Source: Paenibacillus hamazuiensis (GTDB lineage: Bacteria > Bacillota > Bacilli > Paenibacillales > NBRC-103111). From it: a DNA stretch of 64,000 nucleotides. A program made the translations under genes and the position numbers. Below, piece after piece: positions 3,346 to 63,517 of this stretch. The stretch's first letter is position 1, and each line of letters opens with the position of its first letter. The stretch spans positions 8,533,501 through 8,597,500 of the forward strand of contig NZ_JALRMO010000001.1 of NCBI RefSeq assembly GCF_023276405.1. Reading direction: 5' to 3'. The notes beneath the pieces were generated by a model, which was not told the origin of the DNA, ran no database searches, and saw only the letters and a program-made list of their open reading frames with translations.

Positions 3346-4396
3346 GGTGCTTATTGTCGATGATGAAGAATGGAATCGGGACATCATCAAGAGGTTCGGC
3401 AACTGGGAAGCCTACGGGATGCGCATTATAGCGGAAGCCGCCGATGGGCTGGAGGCGATTCGGTTCGTTGAGGAACAGTCTCCCGATATTGTGATTACGG
3501 ATATGCGCATGCCGGGCATGGACGGGACTGAATTGCTGCAACAGATCCATAGCCGGTTTTCGGCAATCAAGCTGATCGTGGTTAGCGGGCATGACGATTT
3601 TGTATATATGAAGCAAGCGATTCTCTCGAAAGCAAAAGATTACTTGTTGAAACCGATCGATCCCAGAGAACTGAATGCCGTATTGCGAAAGTGCAAAGAG
3701 GAGATAGAATCTGCCGTTGCGGCGGGGCAGAACGCTGCGTTCGATATCGAGCTGACGAAGATGATCAAAAATGCGATGCCCGCCATCGCTTCTTCCTTTG
3801 CCGATCTGGATGCGGACAACGTTCAATCCGCTTTCCGGCAGCTGGGGGCCCAAATCGATGCCTATAAGCGATTGGAAGCGTTCGAGATGGAACACGTGTA
3901 TCAGGAGTATTTATTTTTACTGAAAGAGCTTATGGCGAAAAACTTGGTTGATGGCGATCCCCTGCCCTTAGAATCATGCGGATTTTCTTCATGGGAAGCG
4001 GTCGTGGAGGAATTGTCCAAGCTTTATGTTTCTATCATCGAAGATTTGATCCATCAACGGAAAAATAAGAAAAAGTTGAATTTGCGGGATATTAAAAGGT
4101 ATATCGAAAACAATTTCACCAGGCCCATTACGGTGGAGAAGATCGCCCAAGTTTATTTTGTCAGCTATGTCTACCTCAGCCGGGCATTCAAAAGCGAGTT
4201 TGCCGTCAATATTACGGACTATATGCAACAGCTGCGAATGGAGAAGGCCAAAGAGCTGATCGTCATCAATCGGATTCCGATTAAAGCGGTGGCTGAAATG
4301 TGCGGGTACGAAGATGTCGCTTATTTCTACAGAGTGTTTAAGAAATATTTCGGCATAGCTCCCGGAGAAATGCGCAAAAATCAAGAAGAAGGTTAA
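3338..4396 (+). CDS. Response regulator, YesN type (receiver plus AraC DNA-binding domain)
   Basis: 352 residues. The GTG at 3338 is chosen because AAGGAAAGGAG lies just upstream and the receiver motif (IKVLIVDDEEW) begins immediately. Asp55 in VITDMRMPG is the phosphorylation site. The C-terminal AraC-type double helix-turn-helix spans roughly 250-350, with a typical second helix around CGYEDVAYFYRVFKKYFG. It is shorter than many YesN proteins, which often exceed 500 residues, because the central region is reduced. It should activate the transporter promoter at 4394-4476, and possibly its own operon, through the shared 64-bp box. Confidence 0.92.
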   Translation: MIKVLIVDDEEWNRDIIKRFGNWEAYGMRIIAEAADGLEAIRFVEEQSPDIVITDMRMPGMDGTELLQQIHSRFSAIKLIVVSGHDDFVYMKQAILSKAKDYLLKPIDPRELNAVLRKCKEEIESAVAAGQNAAFDIELTKMIKNAMPAIASSFADLDADNVQSAFRQLGAQIDAYKRLEAFEMEHVYQEYLFLLKELMAKNLVDGDPLPLESCGFSSWEAVVEELSKLYVSIIEDLIHQRKNKKKLNLRDIKRYIENNFTRPITVEKIAQVYFVSYVYLSRAFKSEFAVNITDYMQQLRMEKAKELIVINRIPIKAVAEMCGYEDVAYFYRVFKKYFGIAPGEMRKNQEEG

Positions 4397-4457
4397 AAAA
4401 ATGCAATGAAAGCGGGTAAATTCATCTAATTAACTGATTCCGGTATTCCTTTATAAT
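4394..4457 (+). promoter_or_regulatory. 64-bp promoter box B upstream of the binding-protein gene
   Basis: Second copy of the block seen at 1338-1401, same length and no gaps. It begins on the stop codon of the response regulator and ends in TATAAT (4452-4457), a likely -10 for the transport operon. The recurrence suggests a shared activator site occupying the region upstream of RNA polymerase. Confidence 0.6.
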
Positions 4458-4462
4458 CAAAA

Positions 4463-4476
4463 TGTAATCCATTACA
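4463..4476 (+). promoter_or_regulatory. Palindrome at the transcription start, cre-like
   Basis: TGTAATCCATTACA is a perfect dyad around CC. It begins six bases after the -10 element, so it covers the expected start point. It differs from the CcpA cre consensus only at the central CG, where CC is found. Catabolite repression of the transport operon is plausible but unproven. Confidence 0.45.
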
Positions 4477-4491
4477 GGGAGGTCGCAATAT

Positions 4492-5793
4492 ATGAGAAAA
4501 AGTTGGAAGGTCATGTTGAGTACGGCGGCTGCGATCTCGCTGCTCGCGGGATGCTCGGCAAAAGGCGATGGCGGCGGGAATACCGGCAATCAAGCTTCGG
4601 GAAGCGGCGTGGCCGCGCCGAAGGAAGTCACCTTGAAGGTCTTTCTGGCTCAGCCGCGATTCAAAGAGCAATACGACAAGTTTGTCGCCGACTTCACGGC
4701 CAAAGAGAAAGCGGAGAAAAACATCAATGTCAAAGTGCAGATGGAAATGCCGCCGATCGATCAAGCGCCGCAAATTTTGAAAACAAGACTGGCGGCCAAC
4801 GATGGTCCGGATGTGTTCTCCTTGCACGCGATCAACGATCTGCCGACTTATTATAAAGCCGGTTATGTAGATGATCTGTCCAAGCAGCCATTCGCGGGTA
4901 AAATTCTGGATAGCGTCAGACCGGCTGTCACGATTGACAACAAGGTGCTGGCCGTACCGCTTGAAACGCTGAACTGGGGTTATTTGTACAATAAGAAAAT
5001 ATTTGCCGATCTCGGGCTGAAGCCGCCGACAACCGTTACCGAAATGAAGTCGGTGATCGAGACGTTGAAGAAAAATAAAATTACGCCTTTCCAGCTGGCC
5101 TATAAAGAAGCGGGATCGCCGCAGCTCTTCTTGCCGCTAACCGTCGGTGCACTGGTCAATACGGAAAACAAGGACTTCGTCGACCGGATGAACAGCGACA
5201 AAGGTTCGTTCTCGGAGATCAAAAATCAGCTGTTTGGCAATTTTGACCTGGTGAATGCCAACGGAACCGAACGGGCGCTGGAAGTATCCGCAGCCGAAGG
5301 CGCGGCGGCGTTCGCTCAAGGAAAAGCGGCGATGTGGGTGATGGGACCCTGGTATGCCGATACGCTTCTGAAGTCGAACCCGGATCTGCAGTTCGGCGTT
5401 GCGCCGCTGCCGGTCAACGATAATCCGAACGCCACGATGATCAATATGAGCGTCTCCACTTCGCTCGCTGTCGCTGCGGGCAGCAAAAACAAAGAAGTGG
5501 CGTACGATTTCGTAAACTTTGTGCTGGACGATAAGGTAACGAACGATTTGTTCAAGAGCTTGAAGTACAATCCGAATGCCAAAAATCATACGTTCGAAAG
5601 CTATCCGTGGATTAACGAAGCGCTGACTTATGTTAAAGAGGGCAAAGCGTACAAAGATCCGACCATGCCGCCTGCGGTCAAGGACGAGGTCGGGAAGCTG
5701 CTGCAAGCGTACTATTCCAAATCGATTTCGCAGGATGACGTCATCAGCGTCTTGGACAAGGCTTGGAAGAACGCCAATAAAATCAACAAATAG
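4492..5793 (+). CDS. Sugar ABC transporter solute-binding lipoprotein (family 1)
   Basis: 433 residues, ATG behind GGGAGG. A signal peptide ends in the lipobox LLAGC, with Cys21 as the lipid-anchored residue. The mature part has the Venus-flytrap pattern of the MalE/UgpB group (for example GKAAMWVMGPWYADTL about two thirds in). It would capture an oligosaccharide outside the membrane and pass it to the two permeases that follow. The gene is separated from them by a perfect hairpin that probably lets the binding protein be made in excess. Substrate unknown; linkage to GH32 and fructokinase suggests fructose-containing sugars. Confidence 0.92.
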   Translation: MRKSWKVMLSTAAAISLLAGCSAKGDGGGNTGNQASGSGVAAPKEVTLKVFLAQPRFKEQYDKFVADFTAKEKAEKNINVKVQMEMPPIDQAPQILKTRLAANDGPDVFSLHAINDLPTYYKAGYVDDLSKQPFAGKILDSVRPAVTIDNKVLAVPLETLNWGYLYNKKIFADLGLKPPTTVTEMKSVIETLKKNKITPFQLAYKEAGSPQLFLPLTVGALVNTENKDFVDRMNSDKGSFSEIKNQLFGNFDLVNANGTERALEVSAAEGAAAFAQGKAAMWVMGPWYADTLLKSNPDLQFGVAPLPVNDNPNATMINMSVSTSLAVAAGSKNKEVAYDFVNFVLDDKVTNDLFKSLKYNPNAKNHTFESYPWINEALTYVKEGKAYKDPTMPPAVKDEVGKLLQAYYSKSISQDDVISVLDKAWKNANKINK

Positions 5794-6736: not shown

Positions 6737-7560
6737 GGACGGCGAGGCTGTATTCCTTTATCATTACCATCGTACTGTCGCTGTTTGCGGTTGTTTCCTT
6801 CTTTCCTTTGTACATGACCGTCTTGAACTCTTTCAAAACGGAAAAAGAAATATTCGGCTCCATCTTGTCGCTGCCGACTGCAATGCATATCGAGAATTAT
6901 ACGGATGCCCTTCAGAAGACTCAACTGCTGTCCAGTCTCGGAAATACGGTGATTGTCTCGGTGCTCGGGATTGCCGGCATCTTACTGTTCGCTTCTTTGG
7001 CAGGCTATAAGCTGTCCCGAACGCCCGGCAAGCTGAGCGGTTTGATTTTCTTCCTGTTCATCTCTTCCATGCTGGTGCCTTTCCACTCGATCATGATCCC
7101 GCTGGTGAAGACGGCAAAAAGCCTGTCGTTGCAAGGCAGCATCTACGGACTTGCCGTCATTTATATCGGTCTGGGCGTGAACATGGCGATCTTCTTATAC
7201 CATGGGTTTGTGAAGTCTATTCCCCGCGAGCTGGAGGAATCGGCTTATATGGACGGCTGCGGGCAATTCAGAACGTTTACGACCATCATTCTCCCTTTGC
7301 TTCTGCCGATTACCGTTACTGCAGGCATCTTGAATTTTTTGTGGATTTGGAACGATTTCCTGCTGCCATTGCTGATGATTCAGGATGCTAACGATTATAC
7401 GCTGATCCTCTCTACCAATAAATTATTCGGTGAATATACGAAAGACTGGTCGCTAATTTTGGCGGCCTTGGTGCTGACGGCGATTCCGGTTATTCTCATT
7501 TATGCGATTTTCCAGAAATTCATTGTATCGGGGATAGCGGAAGGTGCGGTTAAAGGTTGA
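6733..7560 (+). CDS. Sugar ABC transporter permease, MalG type
   Basis: 275 residues, GTG start overlapping the previous stop, with GGAGGTGG just upstream. It has six predicted helices and an EAA loop (EESAYMDGCGQFRTF). It forms the heterodimeric channel with the preceding MalF-type subunit. The C-terminal segment ending GAVKG is the usual ending of this permease family. Confidence 0.93.
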   Translation: MRTARLYSFIITIVLSLFAVVSFFPLYMTVLNSFKTEKEIFGSILSLPTAMHIENYTDALQKTQLLSSLGNTVIVSVLGIAGILLFASLAGYKLSRTPGKLSGLIFFLFISSMLVPFHSIMIPLVKTAKSLSLQGSIYGLAVIYIGLGVNMAIFLYHGFVKSIPRELEESAYMDGCGQFRTFTTIILPLLLPITVTAGILNFLWIWNDFLLPLLMIQDANDYTLILSTNKLFGEYTKDWSLILAALVLTAIPVILIYAIFQKFIVSGIAEGAVKG

Positions 7561-7615
7561 GCGTTTGCCCGCAAACAGGTGGTCCCGGATGATTACGGAG
7601 AGAGGATCGACACAT

Positions 7616-8500
7616 GTGAAAAACGGAAAGATATATTTGATGCTCATCGGATCAGCTATTTTATGGGGAGTGAGCTTTAATTTAGGGAAAATAGCCGTTA
7701 GTGCTATCGGTCCGATGAATGTGGTAGGCTGGAGATTTTTAATAGCCGCATGCTGTTTGCTCCTTATTTATTACCTGAAGGAGAGGCCGACCTATCGGCA
7801 GCTGAAGCCCAATTTAATAAGATATTTCTTCATAGGAGTCATTGGAATTTTCATGACCAACGCATTGGTTTTTAGCGGATTGTCATCTACTTCGGCTGTA
7901 AACACGGCACTAATCACGGCGGCGAATCCAGCGGTAACCTTAATTTGTTCATTTTTGCTGCTAAGGGAACGGATGAGCAGGCAACAACTGCTGGGCATGA
8001 TCCTTTCCTTGATAGGAGTCTGGTTTGTCATTACGGCAGGCTCCATAACAAAGTTGAGCTCAGTATCTGTTGGAGATTTGTTAGTGTTGTGCGGAAATTC
8101 TTGTTGGGCTCTCTATGGAGTGTTAGGAAGAAAATATTTAAAAGATAGTACTCCTCAAAAAACAACGGCACTTACTATGTGTTTTGGAGCCATTTGTTTT
8201 ATTCCATTTATGAACTTCCCACTTGAGCCAAAACCTGATCATTTGGTTAACTTGGCGGACGTTTGGATGATTATTGGTTTCATCGCATTATTCGGTTCCG
8301 TGCTGGCCTATTTATGGTGGAACAAAGGTATATCCCAACTTGGAGTTTCTCGCACGGGGCTATTTTTTAACTTCGTTCCTATTACCTCCATGATGATGAG
8401 TATTTTCATGGGAGAGGATGTGCTGGTCAGTCAAATAGCTGGTGCTTTCCTTGTTATTACAGGCGTCATTGTTTCATTAATTCGAAATAAACAACTTTGA
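7616..8500 (+). CDS. DMT-superfamily (EamA) transporter
   Basis: 294 residues from the GTG at 7616, chosen because GAGAGG lies upstream and the first helix begins right after (NGKIYLMLIGSAILWGVSF). An ATG at 7589 would add nine residues. Ten hydrophobic helices in two EamA repeats are visible. Such proteins export small metabolites or amino acids; the cargo here is unknown. Its AT-rich codons (many TTA, ATA) differ from the flanking ABC genes, hinting at separate acquisition. It probably shares a transcript with the isomerase gene 15 bases downstream. Confidence 0.85.
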   Translation: MKNGKIYLMLIGSAILWGVSFNLGKIAVSAIGPMNVVGWRFLIAACCLLLIYYLKERPTYRQLKPNLIRYFFIGVIGIFMTNALVFSGLSSTSAVNTALITAANPAVTLICSFLLLRERMSRQQLLGMILSLIGVWFVITAGSITKLSSVSVGDLLVLCGNSCWALYGVLGRKYLKDSTPQKTTALTMCFGAICFIPFMNFPLEPKPDHLVNLADVWMIIGFIALFGSVLAYLWWNKGISQLGVSRTGLFFNFVPITSMMMSIFMGEDVLVSQIAGAFLVITGVIVSLIRNKQL

Positions 8501-8515
8501 CGGAGGGGATGGAAT

Positions 8516-9367
8516 ATGAGTTTATCCATGGGACTGCAGCTGTATTCGGTCAAAAATGCACTGAAGCAAGATTTTATAGGGACATTGGAAAAATTAGCGG
8601 CCATCGGCTATGAGAACCTGGAAATGGTCATCCGAAAAACTGACGAAGGCTTAAGCCTAATCGGCGGGCTGTCGGCGAAGGAAGTACGGGCACAGCTTGA
8701 TCGGCTCGGGATGAAAGTGGTCGGCTGTCATACCCATATCAATGAAGAAACGGAATGGGAAGGGATCATCGAGGCTAACCATACGATCGGCAGCACGGCC
8801 ATCGGCTGCTCCGTTGCCTTTTTCTCCAATAAGGACGATGTGCTCCGGTTTTGCGAAACCTTCAACCGTTACGGCGAGCTTTGCAAAACGAACGGGCTGG
8901 GCCTGTATTACCATAACCATTTTCAGGAATTTCAGCAGTTTGAAGGCGAGACGGTGATGGACATCTTGCTGAACAACATGGAGAAAGATTTGATTCATTT
9001 TGAATTCGATTCGTACTGGGCGGTGAGGGGGGGAGCTAACCCGATCGTATGGCTTCATGAATTGGGGGATCGCTGCAAAAAGCTGCATCAAAAGGATTTG
9101 CCGGTCACTGTGCAGCCTGTGAACTGGTTTGATGTGTTTGGAGCAACGAGCAGCATTACGATCAACGAGCTGTATAAAACGCAGGATCCCGCCCATTTTT
9201 GCGAGATCGGCACCGGCACGCTGAATATACGTGCGATTATTGAAGCAGCGCGAAGCATCGGCTCCGCAGAGTATATTTTTGTCGAGCAGGATGTAACGGC
9301 CAAAGATGAGGTGGAAGGCGTGGCCATCAGCTACGGCAATTTGGAGCGGTTATTGAAGGAAGACTAG
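8516..9367 (+). CDS. Xylose-isomerase-like TIM-barrel protein (sugar phosphate isomerase/epimerase family)
   Basis: 283 residues, ATG behind GGAGGGG. Strand-end motifs of the AP endonuclease/IolE fold are present: a histidine cluster in CHTHIN, YHNHFQEF, acidic residues in HFEFDSYW, LHQKD, and a late Glu in EIGTGTLN. Together these form the usual divalent metal site. Members isomerise or epimerise sugars, dehydrate inosose, or cleave 3-keto-glycosides. It is clearly related to the partial gene at 63531, sharing the start M-S-L-S-x-G-L-Q. The nearby broken Gfo/Idh gene (9731) suggests an oxidoreductase partner once existed here. Confidence 0.85.
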   Translation: MSLSMGLQLYSVKNALKQDFIGTLEKLAAIGYENLEMVIRKTDEGLSLIGGLSAKEVRAQLDRLGMKVVGCHTHINEETEWEGIIEANHTIGSTAIGCSVAFFSNKDDVLRFCETFNRYGELCKTNGLGLYYHNHFQEFQQFEGETVMDILLNNMEKDLIHFEFDSYWAVRGGANPIVWLHELGDRCKKLHQKDLPVTVQPVNWFDVFGATSSITINELYKTQDPAHFCEIGTGTLNIRAIIEAARSIGSAEYIFVEQDVTAKDEVEGVAISYGNLERLLKED

Positions 9368-52849: not shown

Positions 52850-52944
52850 CGATTATTCAGAAGAGAGTTTTGTTGTATTCGAAATCGCGGACCACCTTCC
52901 TTTATTAGTATCAGGAAATAAAAATATTGGAGGTTGGAACCAAG

Positions 52945-53814
52945 ATGAGAAGCGAACAAGAAATGATGGATTTGATCTTGGACTATGCAAGAAATGACGA
53001 GCGGGTCCGGGCAGTTGGAATGAACGGATCCCGAACGAATCCGAACGTTCCGAAAGATATGTTTCAGGATTATGATATTGTGTTTATCGTCACGGATATG
53101 AATTCTTTTATCGCGGACAAAAATTGGGTGGACTGCTTCGGAAGCCGGATCATCATGCAAACGCCGGAAGACATGGATTTGTTCCCGCCCGAGTCGGATG
53201 GCAGATTCTCTTATCTGATGTTGTTTTCCGATGGCAACCGTATAGATCTTACCCTTTGTCCGATCGCGAAAAAAGAGAACTGGAATGGCGGCGACAAACT
53301 TTCTATTGTGCTGATGGATAAAGATCAAATTCTGCCGAATCTCCCGGCGCCAACCGATCAAGATTATTGGGTGAAACGTCCGTCATCCGCTTTTTTTGCG
53401 GATTGCTGCAACGAGTTTTGGTGGGTTTCAACCTATGTGGCCAAAGGCTTGTGGAGACAAGAAATTACTTACGCGATGGACCACTTGAATATGGTTGTAA
53501 GACCGATGCTGATCAAAATGCTCGAGTGGAAGGTTGGCATTGACACTAATTTCTCGCTGAGCACCGGGAAAAATGGAAAATATTTAGAAAAGCACCTGCC
53601 AAAGCAAACCTGGCTGGCATTGCTGTCGACCTATCCGGAGGGGACATATGAAGGTGTGTGGAATGCCTTGTTTGTCGCAATGGATTTATTTCGCAGCACG
53701 GCGAAAGAGGTTGCGGAACTATTGAATTTCGAGTATCCGCTCGATGATGACAGAAAGGTCACGGCATACTTGATCCAGGTGCAGCAATTGGAGTCGGGAG
53801 CAAACTCAATGTAA
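52945..53814 (+). CDS. aadK: Aminoglycoside 6-adenylyltransferase, AadK-like
   Basis: 289 residues from the ATG at 52945, after GGAGG. The nucleotidyltransferase motif is complete: Gly-Ser in MNGSRTNPN and Asp-x-Asp in FQDYDIVFIV. LFSDGNRIDLTLCPI supplies the third acidic position. The length and overall sequence match Bacillus subtilis AadK, which transfers AMP to the 6-hydroxyl of streptomycin. Many soil Firmicutes carry it on the chromosome without it being mobile. No mobile-element signs are seen beside it. Confidence 0.88.
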   Translation: MRSEQEMMDLILDYARNDERVRAVGMNGSRTNPNVPKDMFQDYDIVFIVTDMNSFIADKNWVDCFGSRIIMQTPEDMDLFPPESDGRFSYLMLFSDGNRIDLTLCPIAKKENWNGGDKLSIVLMDKDQILPNLPAPTDQDYWVKRPSSAFFADCCNEFWWVSTYVAKGLWRQEITYAMDHLNMVVRPMLIKMLEWKVGIDTNFSLSTGKNGKYLEKHLPKQTWLALLSTYPEGTYEGVWNALFVAMDLFRSTAKEVAELLNFEYPLDDDRKVTAYLIQVQQLESGANSM

Positions 53815-54052: not shown

Positions 54053-54091
54053 AGTCGTAAAACGCACAAACGAAAGTCGTAAAATGCACAA
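54053..54091 (+). promoter_or_regulatory. Direct repeat pair I upstream of the second sensor kinase operon
   Basis: AGTCGTAAAACGCACAA (54053-54069) and AGTCGTAAAATGCACAA (54075-54091) differ at one base and start exactly 22 bases apart, two helical turns. This is the form of AraC-family sites. TAAAC follows at 54104. Confidence 0.75.
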
Positions 54092-54224
54092 TCAAATGAC
54101 GTGTAAACAATGATAACATACTACAAAATTTGATGTGGTTTATGTTATCATCATGTTAAGAATAATAGGGACTGCCCAAGTACGCTCACGGCAGTTCTTT
54201 TCTTTTATCCAAGGGGGACAGACG

Positions 54225-55964
54225 ATGGGGGGAACAATCCCGCGAATTTCATGGAATTCCATCCGTTTCAAGCTGGTGGTCGGTTTATTGGCCGTTACCG
54301 TTCCGTTAATCACGCTGCTGATTTACAGCAATTATTACAGCATAGGCGTCGTTCACAACCAAGTGGCGCTGTCCAGCAAAAATATGGTGTCTTTGTACAT
54401 GGGGCAGATCGATACCCAGCTTCAGGATGCGGACCGTAATTTGCTCAGTTTGGTCAATTCCAATTTCGATATCGCCTCCATGGACAACCCTAAATCGGAT
54501 GACGAGTATGTGCTCGCCAAACATCGCGTTTCGAATACGTTAGGGAGAGATATTGTTCTTTATAAATCAGTCGATGCTTTTTTTGTATACTCTGAGTCCA
54601 GGCGGGATTTATTGGACGTTTTCAAATCCGCCGTCACATTTGCGGAACGCGATCAAGTGGAGCAGTATATACAGCGTTATTTAAGCGGAAATCCCGATCA
54701 TGCGGATGCAGGCAATAACAGCTGGTTTGTGCAGTCAATTGGACAAGACTACTACATGCTGCGCATCGTCAAATCAGGGACTTTATATGTCGGGGCGTGG
54801 GTAAACGCGAAGACGCTGCTCGTACCGCTCAACTTGATCGATCTCGGCAGTGAGGGGAGCTCGCTGTTCGTAACCGATCAGGGAATACCTATGGTCAGCA
54901 CCAAGCCGCTGCCGGATGAAACGGTCGATTTCACGAAGGGATTCGGGCAATATTACATGTCAGGAAGCAAGAATAATTTGCTCATTGTCGGGGAACCTTC
55001 TCAGGAAGGTAATTTCAGTCTGGCCGCCGTCATTCCGGACCGGCAAATTTTGCAAAACCTGCCGATGATATCCCGGGTCATTGAGACGATATCGTTCGCT
55101 TCTATCGGACTGCTGCCTATCAGTTTTTTATTTCTTCATAAAATTGTGCTCGTTCCGCTTCAACGTTTGATTGCTGTCATGAGAAGAATCAATGACGGGA
55201 ATGTCAATGTCCGGATCGAATCTTACCCGGCCTCCGATGAATTTCAATTGGTCAATCAAACCTTTAATAAAATGATGGCGCAAATCGAACAGCTCAAGAT
55301 CAACGTTTACGAAGAGCAGCTGAGCAAGCAAAAGGCGGAGCTTCAGCATTTGCAGCTGCAGATCAATCCTCATTTCTTTATGAATTCTTTGAATATCTTG
55401 TTTAATTTGGCGCAAGTGAAAAACTATGAATTGATTCAAGAGATGACCTTGTGTCTGGTCCGATATTTTCGTTTCATGTTTCGCAGCAATTTGACGTTCG
55501 TCTCTTTGCATGATGAGCTGCAGCATGTTCGCAACTATGTCCGAATTCAGGAGCTCCGGTTCCCGGGCAGCTTGACCTGTAACATCGACGCACCGGACTT
55601 CCTGGAAAATGTCCCGATACCGCCGCTGCTGATCCAAACGTTCCTGGAAAATTCGATCAAGCACGCTGTTACGCTGGAGGAGCCTGTACGCATTTCCGTT
55701 GATATCGATTTGAACGAAAAGGGCCTTGAGCCATGCATCGAAATCGTGATCCGCGATACGGGCAAAGGCTTTTCCGAGGAAGTATTGACGGAGATCCAAT
55801 CCGGGAATCGCGTGATTGATCAGCAAGATGAGCATATCGGAATCTGGAATGTTCGCCGGAGGTTGCAGCTCCTTTATGACGGGAAAGCGGCTATTTCCTG
55901 CTATAACGGTTACCCACGCGGCGCAGTTGTCGAAATCAAGCTTCCGTATCAACCGGAGCGATAG
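54225..55964 (+). CDS. Sensor histidine kinase, YesM type (second system)
   Basis: 579 residues from the ATG at 54225, behind AAGGGGG; a longer frame from 54135 has no ribosome binding site. Membrane helices near 18-40 and 285-310 enclose an extracellular sensor. HAMP region and phospho-acceptor His383 in QINPHFFMNSLN follow. The ATPase domain has FLENSIKHAV, RDTGKGFSEE and IGIWNVRRRL. A hairpin (ACTGCC with GGCAGT, 54171-54195) followed by a T-rich run lies just before the gene and may attenuate it. It pairs with the response regulator 22 bases downstream. Confidence 0.92.
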   Translation: MGGTIPRISWNSIRFKLVVGLLAVTVPLITLLIYSNYYSIGVVHNQVALSSKNMVSLYMGQIDTQLQDADRNLLSLVNSNFDIASMDNPKSDDEYVLAKHRVSNTLGRDIVLYKSVDAFFVYSESRRDLLDVFKSAVTFAERDQVEQYIQRYLSGNPDHADAGNNSWFVQSIGQDYYMLRIVKSGTLYVGAWVNAKTLLVPLNLIDLGSEGSSLFVTDQGIPMVSTKPLPDETVDFTKGFGQYYMSGSKNNLLIVGEPSQEGNFSLAAVIPDRQILQNLPMISRVIETISFASIGLLPISFLFLHKIVLVPLQRLIAVMRRINDGNVNVRIESYPASDEFQLVNQTFNKMMAQIEQLKINVYEEQLSKQKAELQHLQLQINPHFFMNSLNILFNLAQVKNYELIQEMTLCLVRYFRFMFRSNLTFVSLHDELQHVRNYVRIQELRFPGSLTCNIDAPDFLENVPIPPLLIQTFLENSIKHAVTLEEPVRISVDIDLNEKGLEPCIEIVIRDTGKGFSEEVLTEIQSGNRVIDQQDEHIGIWNVRRRLQLLYDGKAAISCYNGYPRGAVVEIKLPYQPER

Positions 55965-55986
55965 GTAGGAGAGGGGAAGGATACCG

Positions 55987-57588
55987 ATGCTTCAAATATT
56001 GATTGTGGATGACGAAATTCATGCCGTTGAAGGAATCCGATCGGGAATCGATTGGCAGAAGCTGGGTATCACCTCTGTATGCACGGCTATTACAGTCAAT
56101 CAGGCGAAAGCGATATTTGAACATCAGCGAGTCGATATCATGCTGTGCGATATCGAAATGCCGCAGGCTACAGGGCTGGAGCTGGCGGAATGGGTAAGGG
56201 AGCGGTATCCGCAGACGGAAACGATTTTTTTGACGTGTCATGCCGATTTCAAATTTGCCAAGCAAGCGCTGCAGCTCGGAAGCCTGGATTACATTCTGAA
56301 GCCGATCCCGTTCGGCGAGCTGGAGAAAGTGATTCTTAAAGCAATCGAAAAAATCAACAAGGATACGGAACTGGCTCAATACAGCCAATACGGCCGCTTT
56401 TGGTTTCAGCATCAACCGGTGCTGATCGAGCGGTTTTGGCTGGATATCATCCAACAAGCGATACCTCCCAGAGCGGAGGAGGTTCGTCGTGCCGCTGCCG
56501 ACCGCAACATCCCTTTTGCCGAACAAATGACATTTGTGCCGGTGCTTATCAGTATTCAAAGATGGCATAAACCTGTGACTTTGCAAGATGAGAGGACATT
56601 GGAATTCGCGCTGAAAAATTCCGCTGAGGAAATTTTGCTGGGGAACAGCCGAAACGGTCAAGTGATCACGCTGGACAACGGCAGATTGCTTGCCATCATA
56701 CCTTCCAACAGCTTAGCCAACTTTGAATCGTCGCTAAAGCAAACGTGCGAACGTTATATTGACGCGTGCAGACAATATTTTTATTGCGACCTATCCTGTT
56801 ATATCGGAGAAAACGTACATGGACACGAAATGTTTGCGGTGGTAACCCGTCTGCATGAGTCGGAGAGAAATAATGTGGCTTACAATAATAAGGTTTTCCA
56901 GATTTCGGATTTTCCATTACAACCTTCCACGGAACAGCTTCCCGACATGGGATTATGGGCTGTCATGCTTCAGGAGGGAAGGGACAACAAAGTTTTGGAG
57001 GAATCGTCCGGTTATTTGGAGCGGCTGATGCAGCTCAATATATTGGATGCGAGGCTGCTGCGCCAATTTTATCAGGATTATCAGCAAATGATTTATTATG
57101 TTCTTCAGATGAAAGGAATACGAGCACATCAATTGTTTAGCGATAACGTCTCGCTGGGTTATGCCGCAAACGCGATCCGTTCCGTCACCGATCTGATCGC
57201 CTGGATGAAACACGCGGTAAACAAAGCGATGGAGTATATAAGAACGGTTGAACAGTCCGGTAGTGTTGTCGAAAGGGCTATCAGCTACATGAAAAAACAT
57301 ATAGCGGAAGATTTGACCCGGGAAGACATTGCCAATCATGTATTTTTGAATCCGGACTATTTGACCCGCATATTCAAGAAGGAAACCGGGATGGCCGTCT
57401 CGGACTATCTGTTTCAAGAGCGTCTCAAGCTTGCGCAGGAGCTGCTCGCGAAGACCGATATGCCGATCGGCGCCGTCGCTTCGCATATCGGGTACGCCAA
57501 TTTCTCGCATTTTTCCCGGATGTTCAAGAAGCATACCGATTTGAATCCCAATGAATACCGCCAACTGCATCAGCAAGATCGCAAGTGA
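55987..57588 (+). CDS. Response regulator, YesN type (second system)
   Basis: 533 residues, ATG behind GGAGAGGGGAAGG. Receiver domain with phospho-acceptor Asp55 in MLCDIEMPQ. A long middle region follows, then the AraC domain at about 430-530 (TREDIANHVFLNPDYLTRIF, then IGYANFSHFSRMFKKHTDL). It is the natural ligand for the AGTCG repeat pairs at 54053, 57594 and 59329, which precede its own operon, the binding protein and the permeases. Confidence 0.93.
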   Translation: MLQILIVDDEIHAVEGIRSGIDWQKLGITSVCTAITVNQAKAIFEHQRVDIMLCDIEMPQATGLELAEWVRERYPQTETIFLTCHADFKFAKQALQLGSLDYILKPIPFGELEKVILKAIEKINKDTELAQYSQYGRFWFQHQPVLIERFWLDIIQQAIPPRAEEVRRAAADRNIPFAEQMTFVPVLISIQRWHKPVTLQDERTLEFALKNSAEEILLGNSRNGQVITLDNGRLLAIIPSNSLANFESSLKQTCERYIDACRQYFYCDLSCYIGENVHGHEMFAVVTRLHESERNNVAYNNKVFQISDFPLQPSTEQLPDMGLWAVMLQEGRDNKVLEESSGYLERLMQLNILDARLLRQFYQDYQQMIYYVLQMKGIRAHQLFSDNVSLGYAANAIRSVTDLIAWMKHAVNKAMEYIRTVEQSGSVVERAISYMKKHIAEDLTREDIANHVFLNPDYLTRIFKKETGMAVSDYLFQERLKLAQELLAKTDMPIGAVASHIGYANFSHFSRMFKKHTDLNPNEYRQLHQQDRK

Positions 57589-57593
57589 AAGGT

Positions 57594-57632
57594 AGTCGGC
57601 AAATGCATATTGAAAAGTCGTGAGCGGAGCAG
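57594..57632 (+). promoter_or_regulatory. Direct repeat pair II upstream of the binding-protein gene
   Basis: AGTCGGCAAATGCATAT begins at 57594 and AGTCGTGAGCGGAGCAG at 57616, exactly 22 bases apart. The first copy matches pair I at AGTCG, AAA and TGCA. TAAAC follows at 57653. Confidence 0.65.
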
Positions 57633-57738
57633 TGGTTATACCGCAGTGTAAGTAAACTGAATGTAGTTCCGCCGATGATTCCCGTTGAGTAGAATGCGGT
57701 TTCATGCGGGGGCCACCAAAATGAAGTGGGGGATTGCC

Positions 57739-59247
57739 ATGAAAAAGAGATTCACGTCGGCAAGCGCGCTTGTTATCGGATCCATGCTGTTGTTATCCGC
57801 TTGCGGCGGCAGTAACGGGAGCGGGGCACCGGCGGCGGGGGATAAAACTTCTGCAAAACCGGCCGAAAAACCGACGGAGCTGACCGTAGCTTATCCGATT
57901 TTCGGCCCGGTACCTAAAGATTTGCCCTTGGTACAGGAGGCCATTAATAAAATCGCGCAGCAGAAAATCAATGCGACCGTGAAATTGACGCCGATCAGCT
58001 TCGGGAACTGGCATCAACAGGTTAACTTGATGCTGAGCAGCAATGAAAAATTGGATTTAATGCTCGTATACGGTAGCAGATACAGCGGATATGTAGCGAA
58101 AGGGCAAATCGTTGCGCTCGACAAACTGATCGAGCAGCAGGGTCAAGGGATTAAAAAAGCGATGGACCCGGCATATCTGGATGCTTCCAAAATTGGAGGA
58201 TCCATCTATGCGGTCCCGACGATACGCGACTTTGCCGGCAGTTATGGAATTGTGATGCGGAAAGATCTCGTCGATAAGTACCAGATCGATGTCAATAAAA
58301 TACGTACATTGGACGATTTGGAACCGGTGCTCAAAACGATCAAGGATAAAGAGCCGAATATGGCGCCGCTGGTGCCTTCGACTGTAGGCTCGTCATTTCT
58401 CGATTTCTATCGCACGTATGATCAGCTGGGCGATACGATCGGCGTGCTGCCGAACTTCGATAATAATTTGAAGGTAGTGGATTTATACGAGACGCAGGAA
58501 TATAAGGAGCTTCTAAAAAAATTAAGAGGCTGGTATACTTCAGGCCTGATTCTGAAAGATGCGGCCACGAACAAAACATCCCAGTACGATTTGATCAAGT
58601 CGAATCGCGGCTTTGCCTACTTTGCCCAGTTGAAACCCGGATTTGAGCAGCAGGAAACGAGGGGCAGCGGTATGGAGATGGTTTCCGCCACCTTTATTCA
58701 GCCGACAACGGCAACCAAAAACGTCACGAGCCAAATGTGGGGGATTCCGGCCAACTCCAAGACACCGGAAAAAGCGATGGAATTCCTGAACCTGATGTAT
58801 TCCGACAAAGATATCGTCAACCTGATCGATTGGGGTATCGAAGGAAAACACTACGTCAAATCGGATAATGTCATTGACTACCCTCAAGGTGTTGACGCTC
58901 AATCATCAGGCTATAACGTGAATCAGGGATTCATGTTTGGAAATCAATTTCTTTCCTATGTATTTAAGGGTGATGACCCGAAAATTTGGGAGAAAACGGA
59001 ACAATTCAACAAGTCTGCGCTGAAATCCAAAGCGCTCGGCTTTCAGTTCGATGCCGAGCGGGTGAAATCGGAGTTTGCCGCGGTGAGCAACGTCGTCGCG
59101 GAGTACAAGCTGCCGCTTGAAACCGGCAGTGTCGATCCGGATACGATTCTACCGCAATTTATTTCCAAACTGAAATCCGCCGGAGTCGATAAAGTCATCG
59201 CGGAGAAACAAAAACAGCTCGACGAATGGGCCAAAAACAAAAAATAA
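57739..59247 (+). CDS. Solute-binding lipoprotein, LplA-like (second YesMN system)
   Basis: 502 residues from the ATG at 57739, behind GGGGG. Signal peptide with lipobox LLSAC; Cys22 is the anchor. The mature domain has the size and texture of LplA/YtcQ proteins, with the segment MQFLNLMY-like helix near the C-terminal half (here AMEFLNLMYSDKDIVNLIDW). It would bring an oligosaccharide or glycoside to the permeases at 59445-61279. A terminator follows, so the permease operon has its own promoter. Confidence 0.92.
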   Translation: MKKRFTSASALVIGSMLLLSACGGSNGSGAPAAGDKTSAKPAEKPTELTVAYPIFGPVPKDLPLVQEAINKIAQQKINATVKLTPISFGNWHQQVNLMLSSNEKLDLMLVYGSRYSGYVAKGQIVALDKLIEQQGQGIKKAMDPAYLDASKIGGSIYAVPTIRDFAGSYGIVMRKDLVDKYQIDVNKIRTLDDLEPVLKTIKDKEPNMAPLVPSTVGSSFLDFYRTYDQLGDTIGVLPNFDNNLKVVDLYETQEYKELLKKLRGWYTSGLILKDAATNKTSQYDLIKSNRGFAYFAQLKPGFEQQETRGSGMEMVSATFIQPTTATKNVTSQMWGIPANSKTPEKAMEFLNLMYSDKDIVNLIDWGIEGKHYVKSDNVIDYPQGVDAQSSGYNVNQGFMFGNQFLSYVFKGDDPKIWEKTEQFNKSALKSKALGFQFDAERVKSEFAAVSNVVAEYKLPLETGSVDPDTILPQFISKLKSAGVDKVIAEKQKQLDEWAKNKK

Positions 59248-59268
59248 ACGTTTCGATGCAGGTTCTTT

Positions 59269-59304
59269 TGCCCCGGTCCATTTATCTAGGATCGGGGCAT
59301 TTTT
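59269..59304 (+). terminator. Intrinsic terminator after the binding-protein gene
   Basis: TGCCCCGGTC pairs with GATCGGGGCA (one G-T pair) around 11 bases, followed by five T. Confidence 0.9.
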
Positions 59305-59328
59305 ATTTGTAGACCGGTGCGAAAGGAT

Positions 59329-59367
59329 AGTCGGCAAAGTGCTAACCGGAAGTCGTCGGAACGGTAG
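59329..59367 (+). promoter_or_regulatory. Direct repeat pair III upstream of the permease operon
   Basis: AGTCGGCAAAGTGCTAA begins at 59329 and AGTCGTCGGAACGGTAG at 59351, again exactly 22 bases apart. TAAAC follows at 59384. Confidence 0.65.
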
Positions 59368-59444
59368 TGAGTGTGGCGGGTTTTAAACTATGATGAGTTT
59401 ACAGCAAGAAAACATTCATCCTTAAGGGAAGGGGAACGTACGGA

Positions 59445-60377
59445 ATGCCAGGACACGCACTCAGTTTAATCAGGAAGAGAATTTGGAAGTACAGTCCGCT
59501 CTATCTGATGATGCTCCCGGGAATTGTCTACATGATCATTAATAATTATTTGCCTATGTTCGGTTTGTTCATCGCCTTTAAGGACATTAATTTCGTCAAA
59601 GGGATTTGGGCGAGCGATTGGGTCGGTCTTCAAAACTTCAAGTTTTTGTTCCAATCGACGGAAGCTTATGTCATTACCCGCAATACGCTTCTGTACAACG
59701 CGGCTTTCATCGTGATCGGTCTCGTCGTTGCAATAAGTTTTGCGATTCTTCTTAACGAAATTAAGAGCAGATTAGCCTCCCGTCTGTATCAAAGCATCAT
59801 CATATTGCCTTTTTTGATTTCCATGGTATTGGTCAGCTATCTTGTGTATTCCCTGCTTAGCATCGAGAGCGGATTTTTGAACAAAACGATTTTGCCTGCC
59901 TTGGGCATCGAGCCCATCTCTTGGTACAACGAGCCGAAATATTGGCCGTTCATTCTTACGGTAGTCCATACCTGGAAGGGAGCCGGGTACGCATGTATCG
60001 TTTACTTGGCGGCCATCGTCGGCATCGATCCGGAGTATTATGAGGCGGCGACGCTGGACGGAGCTTCCAAATGGCAGCAAATTCGCATGATCACGATACC
60101 TTTGATCACCCCAGTCATTATCATATTGACACTTTTGGCGATCGGACGAATCTTCTACTCCGACTTCGGCCTTTTCTACCAAGTTCCGATGAACGCGGGT
60201 GCTCTCTTCAGCACCACGAACGTCGTCGATACGTATGTGTTCCGCGGACTTTTGCAGCTAGGCGATATCGGAATGTCATCCGCGGCAGGCTTCTATCAAT
60301 CGCTCGTGGGCTTCGTGCTTGTTATCGTGTCCAACTATGTGATCCGAAAAGTCAATAAAGAAAACGCGTTGTTCTAG
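59445..60377 (+). CDS. Polysaccharide/glycoside ABC transporter permease, LplB type
   Basis: 310 residues, ATG about 16 bases after AAGGGAAGGGG. It has six predicted helices and an EAA loop (YEAATLDGASKWQQIRMITI). IASLEGWFAMOUS-type extras are absent; the chain is a plain LplB-type protein ending NYVIRKVNKENALF. It pairs with the next gene. The repeats at 59329-59367 give it a separate, co-regulated promoter. Confidence 0.93.
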   Translation: MPGHALSLIRKRIWKYSPLYLMMLPGIVYMIINNYLPMFGLFIAFKDINFVKGIWASDWVGLQNFKFLFQSTEAYVITRNTLLYNAAFIVIGLVVAISFAILLNEIKSRLASRLYQSIIILPFLISMVLVSYLVYSLLSIESGFLNKTILPALGIEPISWYNEPKYWPFILTVVHTWKGAGYACIVYLAAIVGIDPEYYEAATLDGASKWQQIRMITIPLITPVIIILTLLAIGRIFYSDFGLFYQVPMNAGALFSTTNVVDTYVFRGLLQLGDIGMSSAAGFYQSLVGFVLVIVSNYVIRKVNKENALF

Positions 60378-60388
60378 GGGTGAACATC

Positions 60389-61279
60389 ATGAATAAGGAA
60401 AATCAGGTTTGGCAGTGGGCTGCGCATATCGTTATGGGGTTGTTTTCTGTTACCTGCTTGCTTCCGTTTATCCTTTTGGCGATGTCTTCGATCACCGAAG
60501 AAAAGACCATCTTCCAAAATGGGTATTCCTTCTTTCCGAAGCAGTTCAGCTTTGCCGCTTACGAATATTTGTGGCAGCAATCGTCGCTTATTTTCAACGC
60601 TTACGGGATTACGGTTCTCGTTACGTTAGTGGGAACGACGGCAAGCCTCCTGATCACGTCGATGCTGGCGTATCCGTTATCGCGACGCGACTTGCCAGGC
60701 GGTATGTTCTTCGCCTTCCTGCTGTTTTTCACCTTGTTGTTTAATGGCGGACTCGTTCCGACTTACTTGATTTACACCCAGGTGTTCCATATCAAAAATA
60801 CGATTTGGGCGCTGATCGTTCCGGGACTGTTAATGAACGGATTTAACGTGCTCCTTATGCGTACCTTCTTCATGACCACCGTCCCCGTTCCGGTACTTGA
60901 AGCGGCAAGTATGGACGGCGCGAGCGAGTTTAAGATGTATTACAAAATTGTCATGCCGCTGTCGCTTCCGATTTTGGCCACTGTCGGTTTGTTTCAAGGG
61001 CTTGCGTACTGGAACGATTGGAACAACGGTTTAATTTATGTCACCGACCCCAAATTGTTCAGTCTGCAGAACGTGCTCAATCGGATTATGAGCGATATCC
61101 AATTTTTAGCCAGCAACAGCGAAGCAAGCGCGCAAGCGGGTACGGCGATCGCTCAGCTTCCGAGCGAGACGTTCCGCATGGCGATCGCGGTCATAGCGGT
61201 TGTCCCGATCCTGATCACGTATCCGTTCTTTCAGAAATACTTCATCAAAGGCATGACCATCGGCGCTGTCAAAGGCTGA
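60389..61279 (+). CDS. Polysaccharide/glycoside ABC transporter permease, LplC type
   Basis: 296 residues. ATG at 60389 follows GGGGTGA; the GTG at 60380 overlaps that site. It has six predicted helices, an EAA loop (LEAASMDGASEFKMYYKIVM) and the typical C-terminus MTIGAVKG. It completes the importer with the LplB-type partner and needs an ATPase from elsewhere. Confidence 0.93.
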   Translation: MNKENQVWQWAAHIVMGLFSVTCLLPFILLAMSSITEEKTIFQNGYSFFPKQFSFAAYEYLWQQSSLIFNAYGITVLVTLVGTTASLLITSMLAYPLSRRDLPGGMFFAFLLFFTLLFNGGLVPTYLIYTQVFHIKNTIWALIVPGLLMNGFNVLLMRTFFMTTVPVPVLEAASMDGASEFKMYYKIVMPLSLPILATVGLFQGLAYWNDWNNGLIYVTDPKLFSLQNVLNRIMSDIQFLASNSEASAQAGTAIAQLPSETFRMAIAVIAVVPILITYPFFQKYFIKGMTIGAVKG

Positions 61280-61310
61280 TCCAAATACACTAAGAAGGAA
61301 GTTGATCTAC

Positions 61311-62405
61311 ATGAACAAAAAGCTGAATATCGGAATTATCGGCTGCGGAGCCATTGCCAATCAAAAACATATGCCTTCGCTCGCGAAGCTGGGTCATTTG
61401 GGCAGGATGGTCGCTTTTTGCGATGTGGTGGCGGAAAGAGCAAGCAAAGCGGCAGCTGATTTCGGCGATGCGGATGCCAAGGTCTTCGAGGATTATAAGG
61501 AGCTCTTGAAGGACGGCTCTATCGATGTGGTTCATGTTCTGACCCCCAATCTGTATCATTCCCAAATTACAGTAGATGCATTGGAAGCAGGCAAGCATGT
61601 CATGTGCGAAAAGCCGATGGCGATTAACTCGATGGAAGCGAAAAGAATGCTGGATGCAGCGAAGAAGAGCGGCAAAAGACTGACGATCGGTTATCAAAAC
61701 CGGTTTAAGGAAGAGTCGCAGGTGCTGAAGCGTGCCTGCATCTCCGGCGATATGGGTGAAATCTATATGGCCAAAGCCCATGCCGTTCGCAGAAAGGCAG
61801 TGCCCACCTGGGGCGTTTTTACGGATAAAAAGCTGCAGGGCGGCGGAGCACTCATCGATATCGGCACCCATGCTTTGGATTTGACGCTTTGGTGTATGGA
61901 CAATTATAAGCCGAAATCGGTCACAGGTTCCGTCTATTATAAGCTGAAAGACAACATGGAAGGCAATTTATTCGGGCCTTGGGACCCGGCAACCTTCGAT
62001 GTCGAGGATTCCGCGTTCGCCTTTATCAAAATGGAGGACGGTGCCACCATTTTCCTGGAATGCTCCTGGGCTCTGAACACGACGGATGCGAAAGAAGCCA
62101 AAACTTCATTGTTCGGCGTCACAGGCGGGGCCGAAATGAAGTTGGGACCGGACCGGAAAACGGAGCTCGTCTTCAATACGGCCAAGTACGGCAAATTGAT
62201 GGAGATGAAGCCGAATTCGCTCTCGAGTGTCGCTTATTTCAGCGGCGCGGATGACAATCCCGGAGTATTGGAGGCGAAGCAATGGCTGGAATCCATTCTC
62301 CAGGATACGGAGCCGCTCGTCACTGCAGAACAGGCCTATGTGGTCACCCAAATCTTGGAGGCCGTTTATTTATCGGCCGAGACCGGGAAAGCGGTGGAGT
62401 TATGA
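61311..62405 (+). CDS. Gfo/Idh/MocA-family oxidoreductase (first of two)
   Basis: 364 residues from the ATG at 61311, behind AGAAGGAAG. N-terminal Rossmann fold (IGIIGCGAIANQKHMPSLAK), then HVLTPNLYH and the conserved GKHVMCEKPMA motif carrying the catalytic Lys. The C-terminal substrate domain has GGGALIDIGTHALDL. Such enzymes oxidise hydroxyl groups on sugars, inositols or glycosides with NAD(P). It is in line with the transporter genes and overlaps the next oxidoreductase by 4 bases. Confidence 0.92.
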   Translation: MNKKLNIGIIGCGAIANQKHMPSLAKLGHLGRMVAFCDVVAERASKAAADFGDADAKVFEDYKELLKDGSIDVVHVLTPNLYHSQITVDALEAGKHVMCEKPMAINSMEAKRMLDAAKKSGKRLTIGYQNRFKEESQVLKRACISGDMGEIYMAKAHAVRRKAVPTWGVFTDKKLQGGGALIDIGTHALDLTLWCMDNYKPKSVTGSVYYKLKDNMEGNLFGPWDPATFDVEDSAFAFIKMEDGATIFLECSWALNTTDAKEAKTSLFGVTGGAEMKLGPDRKTELVFNTAKYGKLMEMKPNSLSSVAYFSGADDNPGVLEAKQWLESILQDTEPLVTAEQAYVVTQILEAVYLSAETGKAVEL

Positions 62406-63517
62406 GTAAAGTGAAAGTAGGCGTTATCGGCTGCGGAAATATTAGCTCGATTTATTTTCAAGCCGGGCAAACCTTTGCCAATTTCGAAATCGCCGCTTGT
62501 GCCGACTTGAATCTGGAGAGGGCACAGGCGTGCGCGGAGCAGTTTCAAATTCCAAAAGCCTGTACGGTGGAACAGCTTCTGGCCGATCCGGACATTCAGC
62601 TCATTATTAACTTGACGATTCCGGCTTCGCATGCCGACATTCATTTGCGTGCTCTGGAGGCGGGAAAACATACCTATGGGGAAAAACCGCTGGCCGTCGA
62701 GCTCGAAGACGGACGCCGCATCCTCTCGCTAGCGAAGGAAAAAAATCTGCTCGTCGGCGCCGCTCCCGATACGTTCTTGGGCGGCGGCATCCAAACCTGC
62801 CGCAAACTGATCGATGACGGCTGGATTGGTGAGCCCATCGCGGCAACCGCGTTTATGATGTACCACGGCCCGGAGAAATTTCATCCGAATCCGGATTTTC
62901 TGTATCAAAAAGGAGCCGGTCCGATGTTTGACATGGGCCCTTATTATCTTACCGCTTTAATCAACCTGATTGGACCTGTATGCCGCGTTACCGGCGCAGC
63001 CCGAACGACGTTTAAAGAACGTATGGTGCGCAATGAAACGAATTACGGCAGGAGGTTTCCGGTGGAAACCCCGACTCATATCGCCGGTATATTGGAATTT
63101 GAAAATGGAGCCGTAGGGACGATCGTCACCAGCTTCGATGTTTGGGGGACGCGCGTTCCGCACATTGAAATTCATGGTACGACGGGATCGCTTATTGTCC
63201 CTGATCCGAACCACTTTGGCGGTCCGATCTATATCAAGAGACAGGATTATACCGAATTCATCGAGGTGCCGTTAACCCACGGCTTTACGACGAACAGCCG
63301 GGGCCTCGGCGTTATGGACATGGCAAACGCAATTCTTCATGGGGGCGGGCATCGTGCAAATGGAGAGCTGGCCTATCATGTACTGGAAATCATGCATGGT
63401 TTCCATTTCGCCGCAAACGAAGGAAAGCATTACGAGATAAAGAGCACCTGCTCGAAACCGGCGCCTTTGAACATGAATTTGCTCAAAAACGGAATGGCGA
63501 ACGGGTATACAATCTAA
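62402..63517 (+). CDS. Gfo/Idh/MocA-family oxidoreductase (second of two)
   Basis: 371 residues, ATG overlapping the previous stop. The cofactor loop reads VGVIGCGNISSIYFQAG. The usual EKPLA motif is present as GKHTYGEKPLAVEL with its catalytic Lys. The substrate domain includes GAGPMFDMGPYYLTALINLI. It is only distantly related to the preceding enzyme, so the two are not a recent duplication and probably act on different forms of the substrate. Confidence 0.92.
   Translation: MSKVKVGVIGCGNISSIYFQAGQTFANFEIAACADLNLERAQACAEQFQIPKACTVEQLLADPDIQLIINLTIPASHADIHLRALEAGKHTYGEKPLAVELEDGRRILSLAKEKNLLVGAAPDTFLGGGIQTCRKLIDDGWIGEPIAATAFMMYHGPEKFHPNPDFLYQKGAGPMFDMGPYYLTALINLIGPVCRVTGAARTTFKERMVRNETNYGRRFPVETPTHIAGILEFENGAVGTIVTSFDVWGTRVPHIEIHGTTGSLIVPDPNHFGGPIYIKRQDYTEFIEVPLTHGFTTNSRGLGVMDMANAILHGGGHRANGELAYHVLEIMHGFHFAANEGKHYEIKSTCSKPAPLNMNLLKNGMANGYTI

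Follow-up and report, generated by a model that had tools for sequence, protein, structure and literature searches.

The locus and its three direct-repeat pairs

The window analysed here, a 64,000-nucleotide stretch of Paenibacillus hamazuiensis DNA (positions 8533501-8597500 of an 8.8-Mb genome in two contigs, G000), contains a row of genes identified by Pfam assignment as encoding a YesM-type sensor kinase, a response regulator joining a receiver to AraC-type domains, a DUF3502 solute-binding protein, two permeases and two GFO/IDH/MocA oxidoreductases (Table 1). A kinase of the His_kinase family (PF06580) and a receiver-AraC regulator thus adjoin a sugar ATP-binding cassette (ABC) transporter, the arrangement of a YesMN-type two-component system. 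Three pairs of short direct repeats, which precede the kinase-regulator operon, the binding-protein gene and the permease operon and are candidate operators of this system, are the subject of this report.

The pattern AGTCG-N17-AGTCG occurs three times in the window (at 54053, 57594 and 59329, all on the plus strand), each time at a pitch of exactly 22 bp and precisely where an earlier sequence-only reading had placed it; dinucleotide shuffles of the window gave a mean of 0.10 matches, and none of the 100 reached three. The result does not depend on prior choice of the word. When all 5-mers at pitches of 10-40 were compared among the 410, 150 and 197 bases upstream of the three targets, AGTCG at 22 alone was common to the three regions, and none of 2000 sets of dinucleotide shuffles shared any spaced 5-mer pair. 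Genome-wide, the bare pair behaves as a random pattern, with 11 copies (8 outside the regulon) as against 21 for the same pattern read backwards, and it was rejected as a marker at that scale; lacking such enrichment, the argument for the pairs draws on their clustering, common strand, position and flanking sequence. Operator 1 is a near-perfect tandem of a 22-bp unit, the two units agreeing in 19 of 22 bases. A faint third box, TGACG at 54097-54101, stands in register with its 22-bp pitch, and the sequence AATGAT, three bases upstream of the weak GATAAC, offers an alternative -10 hexamer.

Table 1. Coordinates of genes and predicted regulatory features in the window
Feature	Position	Strand	Remarks
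Operator 1 (kinase-regulator operon)	54053..54093	+	boxes AGTCG at 54053 and 54075; profile E 3.3e-5
Weak -10 candidate GATAAC of operator 1	54112..54117	+	37-bp offset
YesM-type sensor kinase	54225..55964	+	His_kinase, HAMP, HATPase_c
YesN/AraC-type response regulator, 533 aa	55987..57588	+	Response_reg, HTH_18, HTH_AraC; proposed binder of the three operators
Operator 2 (binding-protein gene)	57594..57634	+	boxes at 57594 and 57616; proximal inner box GGAGCAG; profile E 1.4e-8
-10 hexamer TAAACT of operator 2	57653..57658	+	37 bp from proximal box
Solute-binding protein, target gene	57739..59247	+	SBP_bac_1, DUF3502
Operator 3 (permease operon)	59329..59369	+	boxes at 59329 and 59351; proximal inner box ACGGTAG; profile E 1.9e-10
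-10 hexamer TATGAT of operator 3	59389..59394	+	38 bp from proximal box
Two ABC permease genes, target operon	59445..61279 (59445-60377, 60380-61279)	+	BPD_transp_1 twice
Two GFO/IDH/MocA oxidoreductases	61302..63517 (61302-62405, about 62402-63517)	+	Pfam

Conservation and genomic distribution of the sites

Orthologs of the regulator were sought in 98 relatives, and the best five clusters (L039-L043, 70-76% identity) were examined. A weight matrix placed a site before the kinase, binding-protein and permease genes in all five (15/15 sites, eight of them among the 11 on which the matrix was trained). Across the 18 aligned sites from the window and these clusters, GTCG is invariant in both boxes and the pitch is 22 bp throughout, and in 14 of them the hexamer TANNNT lies exactly 37 bp from the proximal box; the other four comprise three permease sites in which it stands one base further and operator 1 of the window, which reads GATAAC. 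These alignments refine the half-site originally proposed: the spaced direct pair stands, but the conserved core consists of GTCG together with an inner box, and not of the AGTCG pentamer. They also dispose of TAAAC as a separate element. This word does occur downstream of the second repeat in all three pairs, as had been noted, at distances of 29, 37 and 33 bases, but orthologs keep a -10 hexamer at 37 or 38 bp there in place of it, and TAAAC merely overlaps the -10 region. In L043 the regulator gene (7549-9147) has one in-frame TGA in the regulator-aligned stretch, and the three operator sites of that cluster are intact.

A sequence profile built from the 18 sites was applied to held-out material. 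A scan of named genomes, in which the relatives found belong mainly to Paenibacillus and in smaller number to Cohnella, Bacillus, Robertmurraya and Clostridium, gave 79 loci; eight repeats of genomes already used (L126, L148, L153, L156, L168, L169, L200 and L202) were dropped and 71 were searched. All six clusters with a regulator 69-76% identical to that of the window (L125, L127-L130, L133) have all three sites (18/18, E <=0.0033), so that the placement of the pairs before these three genes, part of the original proposal, recurs in these six clusters as in the five examined first. In L131 and L132 (regulator 61-63% identical) the kinase and binding-protein sites are present, the kinase site of L132 being weak (E 0.21), and the permease gene follows within about 120 bases after the binding-protein gene. 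Every one of the 53 profile matches at E up to 1 in the 71 loci lies on the strand of the regulator gene. Some held-out species are close to training species, so that common descent explains part of this conservation.

In the genome of P. hamazuiensis itself, the profile found the three operators at the E values of Table 1, the next best match being at 0.11, and did not pick up the operators of paralogous clusters. The full motif, unlike the bare pentamer pair, is thus not scattered at random, and the notion of one regulon is strongly supported by these comparisons. The 98 genomes gave 31 matches at E up to 0.1. Twenty have E <=3.3e-5, namely the 18 sites from which the profile was built, and which it is bound to find, and one site each in G037 and G009, both preceding the orthologous permease; the other 11 are weaker (E 6.5e-4 to 0.075). 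Among the latter, G040 contributes a fourth site, which precedes a MocA gene, and G082 contributes two that lie roughly 26 kb from one another, each close to a gene for a binding protein. In the G009 cluster (L085, 1759-4748) operator pairs precede a kinase fragment (residues 31-125 only) and the permease; this could reflect either a natural loss in which the operators outlasted the two-component system or a join introduced during assembly.

The kinase open frame runs from 54135, and the ATG at 54225, which follows AAGGGGG, is judged by eye to be its likelier start. The oxidoreductase genes probably belong to the permease operon, their close spacing suggesting co-transcription. In L039, the one cluster scanned for this purpose, a glycoside hydrolase family 2 gene lies between the binding-protein and permease genes and a family 3 gene follows, which makes a beta-linked oligosaccharide a plausible substrate of the transporter; the window has no glycoside hydrolase gene between its binding-protein and permease genes. 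A second kinase and AraC-regulator pair with a binding protein lies at 1552-5790 of the window and is presumably the first sensor operon of the sequence-only reading. Just upstream of the regulon, at 52927-53814, is a gene of the streptomycin adenylyltransferase family (PF04439, E 1.2e-131).

Promoter geometry and the fourth base of the box

The same design recurs widely among homologous systems. Kinase, binding-protein and first-permease homologs from 130 clusters supplied 395 regions, each comprising 350 bases upstream and 60 inside the gene, near-copies being kept. GTC pairs followed by a -10 hexamer at 36-38 bp numbered 132 at pitch 22, 30 at 23, 9 at 20 and 8 at 21, with at most six at every other pitch from 12 to 39; four of the 132 come from L085, L086 and L088, which were included because the profile had matched them. 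GTC ranked first of the 64 trinucleotides at pitch 22. In 190 held-out regions from more distant clusters, free of profile bias, GTCG pairs with a -10 numbered 44 at pitch 22, 12 at 23 and at most three elsewhere, and a repeat on 103 regions from new clusters gave 21, 7 and at most two, respectively. Among the controls, the reverse complement yielded 2/395 at pitch 22 and sequences upstream of the regulator gene 0/144; other genes of the same loci yielded 17/860 at 22 and 15 at 23, versus 0-8 at other pitches, and some of those 17 genes, carbohydrate-enzyme-like by their protein starts, may be real targets. A repeat-lag spectrum without word filter was uninformative, since codon periodicity raises multiples of three, and was replaced by these word-specific tests.

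The distance to the -10 hexamer is equally rigid when it is not imposed. In 122 regions with GTCN pairs selected without a -10 filter, -10-like hexamers stood at 37 (77) and 38 (36), the other offsets averaging 1.2. After removal of redundancy, 84 sites from 61 clusters, each chosen for having a -10, gave the logo rGTCG, A at +15, A at +21, rGTCG, gGTAG at 34-38, a 20-base gap and the -10. Where a -35 would be expected, the sequence agrees with TTGACA in a mean of 2.3 of the 6 bases, compared with 2.2 for control positions, so that the proximal half-site occupies the place of a -35; this placement, the poor -35 and the fixed -10 distance together constitute class II promoter geometry. In L053, L090, L154, L162, L166 and L171 GTCG operators have a pitch of 23 bp, and most of the regulators share the helix NPDYLSR. 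Upstream of the L090 permease homolog, three tandem boxes at 23 bp (TGTCG, TGTCG, AGTCG) form two overlapping operators.

Variation in the fourth base of the box follows the sequence of the regulator. At pitch 22 this base is mostly concordant between the two boxes (GG 100, AA 14, mixed pairs at most 18), and the 96 clusters with both a concordant site and a readable helix divide into 72 GTCG, 23 GTCA and 1 GTCC. Each of the 23 regulators with GTCA sites carries either A or S at residue 457 or the combination of H455 and S460, and neither feature occurs in GTCG regulators, except for an unrelated protein aligned in L085 that was left out. The resulting rule, linking residues 455, 457 and 460 to the fourth base, fits 94 of 94 clusters, after the prior removal of L182 for its GTCC site, L196 for a gap in the helix and L085; L085 lacks its own partner gene, and its aligned stand-in, a 27%-identical AraC protein, would count as a miss. 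On a tree constructed without the DNA-binding domain, the label changes three times, giving 2-3 independent pairs, which cannot be significant, and with so few changes the 94/94 fit alone proves little. Regulator columns were also compared with the fourth base by mutual information, but the highest-scoring columns lie outside the DNA-binding domain, so that the signal mostly reflects ancestry, and it was not used as evidence.

A further test held the rule fixed and applied it to 60 new clusters, of which 23 were dropped as >=90% identical to earlier ones and three as mutual repeats. The remaining 34 included 13 without a readable site, and 20 of the 21 with one obeyed the rule, H455/T460 occurring with G in 4/4 and H455/S460 with A in 4/4. 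The single failure was L242, with a GTCT site. The new regulators are 41-90% identical to the old ones, and the test is therefore not fully independent. The box pairs of L242 (GTCT) and L182 (GTCC) possibly represent further specificity classes.

A structural rationale is suggested by the AraC-family domains that are the best solved matches of the regulator. In a phmmer alignment, query residues 7-106 correspond to MarA 16-115; the two stretches are equal in length, which suggests an alignment free of gaps, and in that case regulator residues 457, 460 and 461 would fall on MarA 42, 45 and 46; the available text of one report describes MarA helix-3 residues Trp42, Gln45 and Arg46 as contacting bases (PMC3315485). 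Taking these observations as a whole, we lean, by a slight preference, to the reading that YesN regulators of Paenibacillaceae and relatives share a common design (GTCN, 20-23 bp, GTCN, with a -10 at 37-38 bp) in which helix residues would set the fourth base. GTCG would be specified by N455 together with D457 and also by H455 with T or N at 460, and GTCA by an A or S at 457 or by H455 combined with S460. Within the same reading the shared GTC would be recognised by Arg461, which hardly varies, and the inner box would provide further insulation among the numerous paralogs that coexist.

Predicted mode of action and relation to known systems

To judge from comparative sequence data, the three sites are a real, conserved regulatory element. 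They are best interpreted, in our view with high confidence, as predicted operators through which the adjacent regulator would activate transcription in class II fashion and positively regulate its own synthesis. The AraC-type direct-repeat dimer site envisaged by the sequence-only reading is strongly supported by the comparisons, the adjacent gene encoding just such a receiver-AraC regulator. In the mechanism we propose, the partner kinase would phosphorylate the regulator, two molecules of which would then occupy the same face of the DNA in head-to-tail order, separated by two helical turns (22 bp). Within a half-site, GTCG would be read by the first helix-turn-helix and the inner box, about 11 bp further on, by the second. 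The proximal half-site would cover the place of the missing -35 and recruit polymerase, the class II mode following from this position together with a -10 at a fixed 37-38 bp. The regulator would thereby switch on its own kinase-regulator operon, in a positive feedback, along with the binding protein and the permease/oxidoreductase operon. Site structure, conservation and placement, the -10 geometry, the missing -35 and the correlation of helix with base come directly from comparison of genomes; binding, its dependence on phosphorylation, activation in preference to repression and the assignment of helices to boxes are predicted from them.

Certain observations weigh against this interpretation. 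G009 and G037 keep their permease sites, and no regulator above 36% identity was found there, in an assembly that is 78% complete in the case of G037 and with only the kinase fragment beside the site in G009. Operator 1 is without the GGTAG inner box, is matched by the profile over model positions 2-35 only, and has a poor -10; given these properties, its duplication and its faint third box, one might speculate that its promoter may be tuned differently. Finally, the regulator could be aligned in 125 clusters, and in 29 of these the test yielded no site that could be read and labelled, from which it is evident that other designs or weaker sites exist in the family.

The alternative that survives best, although we regard it as improbable, is that the operators serve another AraC/YesN paralog encoded elsewhere, the adjacent regulator being a bystander or acting at other sites. 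The genome does encode three further close YesN paralogs, 43-46% identical to the regulator, the GTCG core is common to paralogs, and the sites in G009 and G037 persist with no orthologous regulator detected. Nevertheless, the strong matches among the 98 genomes are confined to the six regulator clusters and to these two genomes with an orthologous transporter, the profile misses the operators of paralogous clusters in the same genome, and under the helix rule the fourth base goes with the regulator encoded in its own cluster. Less probable again is that the regulator is a repressor whose dimer blocks polymerase until phosphorylation releases it: overlap of the proximal half-site with the -35 place would suit such a role, but polymerase would require assistance where the -35 match is so slight, the -10 stands at as rigid a distance as in class II activation, and most of the AraC-type two-component regulators treated in the accessible part of one study are predicted to activate (PMC8579813). 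A chance origin of the repeats in A-rich leader DNA, for which the unenriched bare pattern and the duplication-like form of operator 1 might be cited, is contradicted by the shuffle tests, by recurrence at the same positions in other species and by the fixed -10 distance, and is already refuted by the held-out clusters.

Genomes of the Paenibacillus type contain several to many YesMN systems, four close relatives being present in this one, and the DNA sites of such systems are undefined in the accessible literature. With an operator defined to the base and a fixed promoter geometry, targets become assignable by sequence. Through the helix-to-base rule, single substitutions could test how paralogs of one two-component family are kept insulated; if causal, the rule would allow the operators and regulon of a YesN paralog to be predicted from its protein sequence.

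MarA, which binds as one molecule on one site, shares the AraC-family domain with the present regulator and is without a receiver domain. A literature search, for the most part of openly accessible journal text, found no earlier report naming this motif, and the accessible portions of PMC10766802 and PMC8457756 contain nothing on it. Pneumococcal YesN/TCS09 has the same regulator architecture, and the available text on that system reports no clear repeat motif (PMC11034029); XydR of Clostridium cellulolyticum likewise has this architecture, with shared sequences listed but no defined site in the part of the report at hand (PMC3572039). Closer parallels exist in two other systems, as far as the accessible text of each report extends. 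Operators of the AraC-type hybrid two-component systems (HTCS) of Bacteroides thetaiotaomicron are predicted direct repeats averaging 21 bp, on the same DNA face and in carbohydrate gene clusters, as here, and their motif similarity follows the regulator tree; HTCS are membrane hybrid regulators, whereas the Paenibacillus system has a separate kinase and regulator, and that text gives no fixed -10 distance or helix-to-base rule (PMC3878776). In Caldicellulosiruptor bescii, tandem-repeat sites of AraC-domain two-component regulons such as BxgRS were searched at 21 or 32 bp periodicity; these too pair a separate kinase with an AraC regulator beside an oligosaccharide ABC transporter and are predicted activators, in an organism of a different order, the likeness being one of layout (PMC8579813). 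Direct-repeat AraC-type operators two turns apart are already known as predictions; to these the present analysis adds a motif for this Paenibacillus family, a -10 at fixed distance and the rule linking helix to base.

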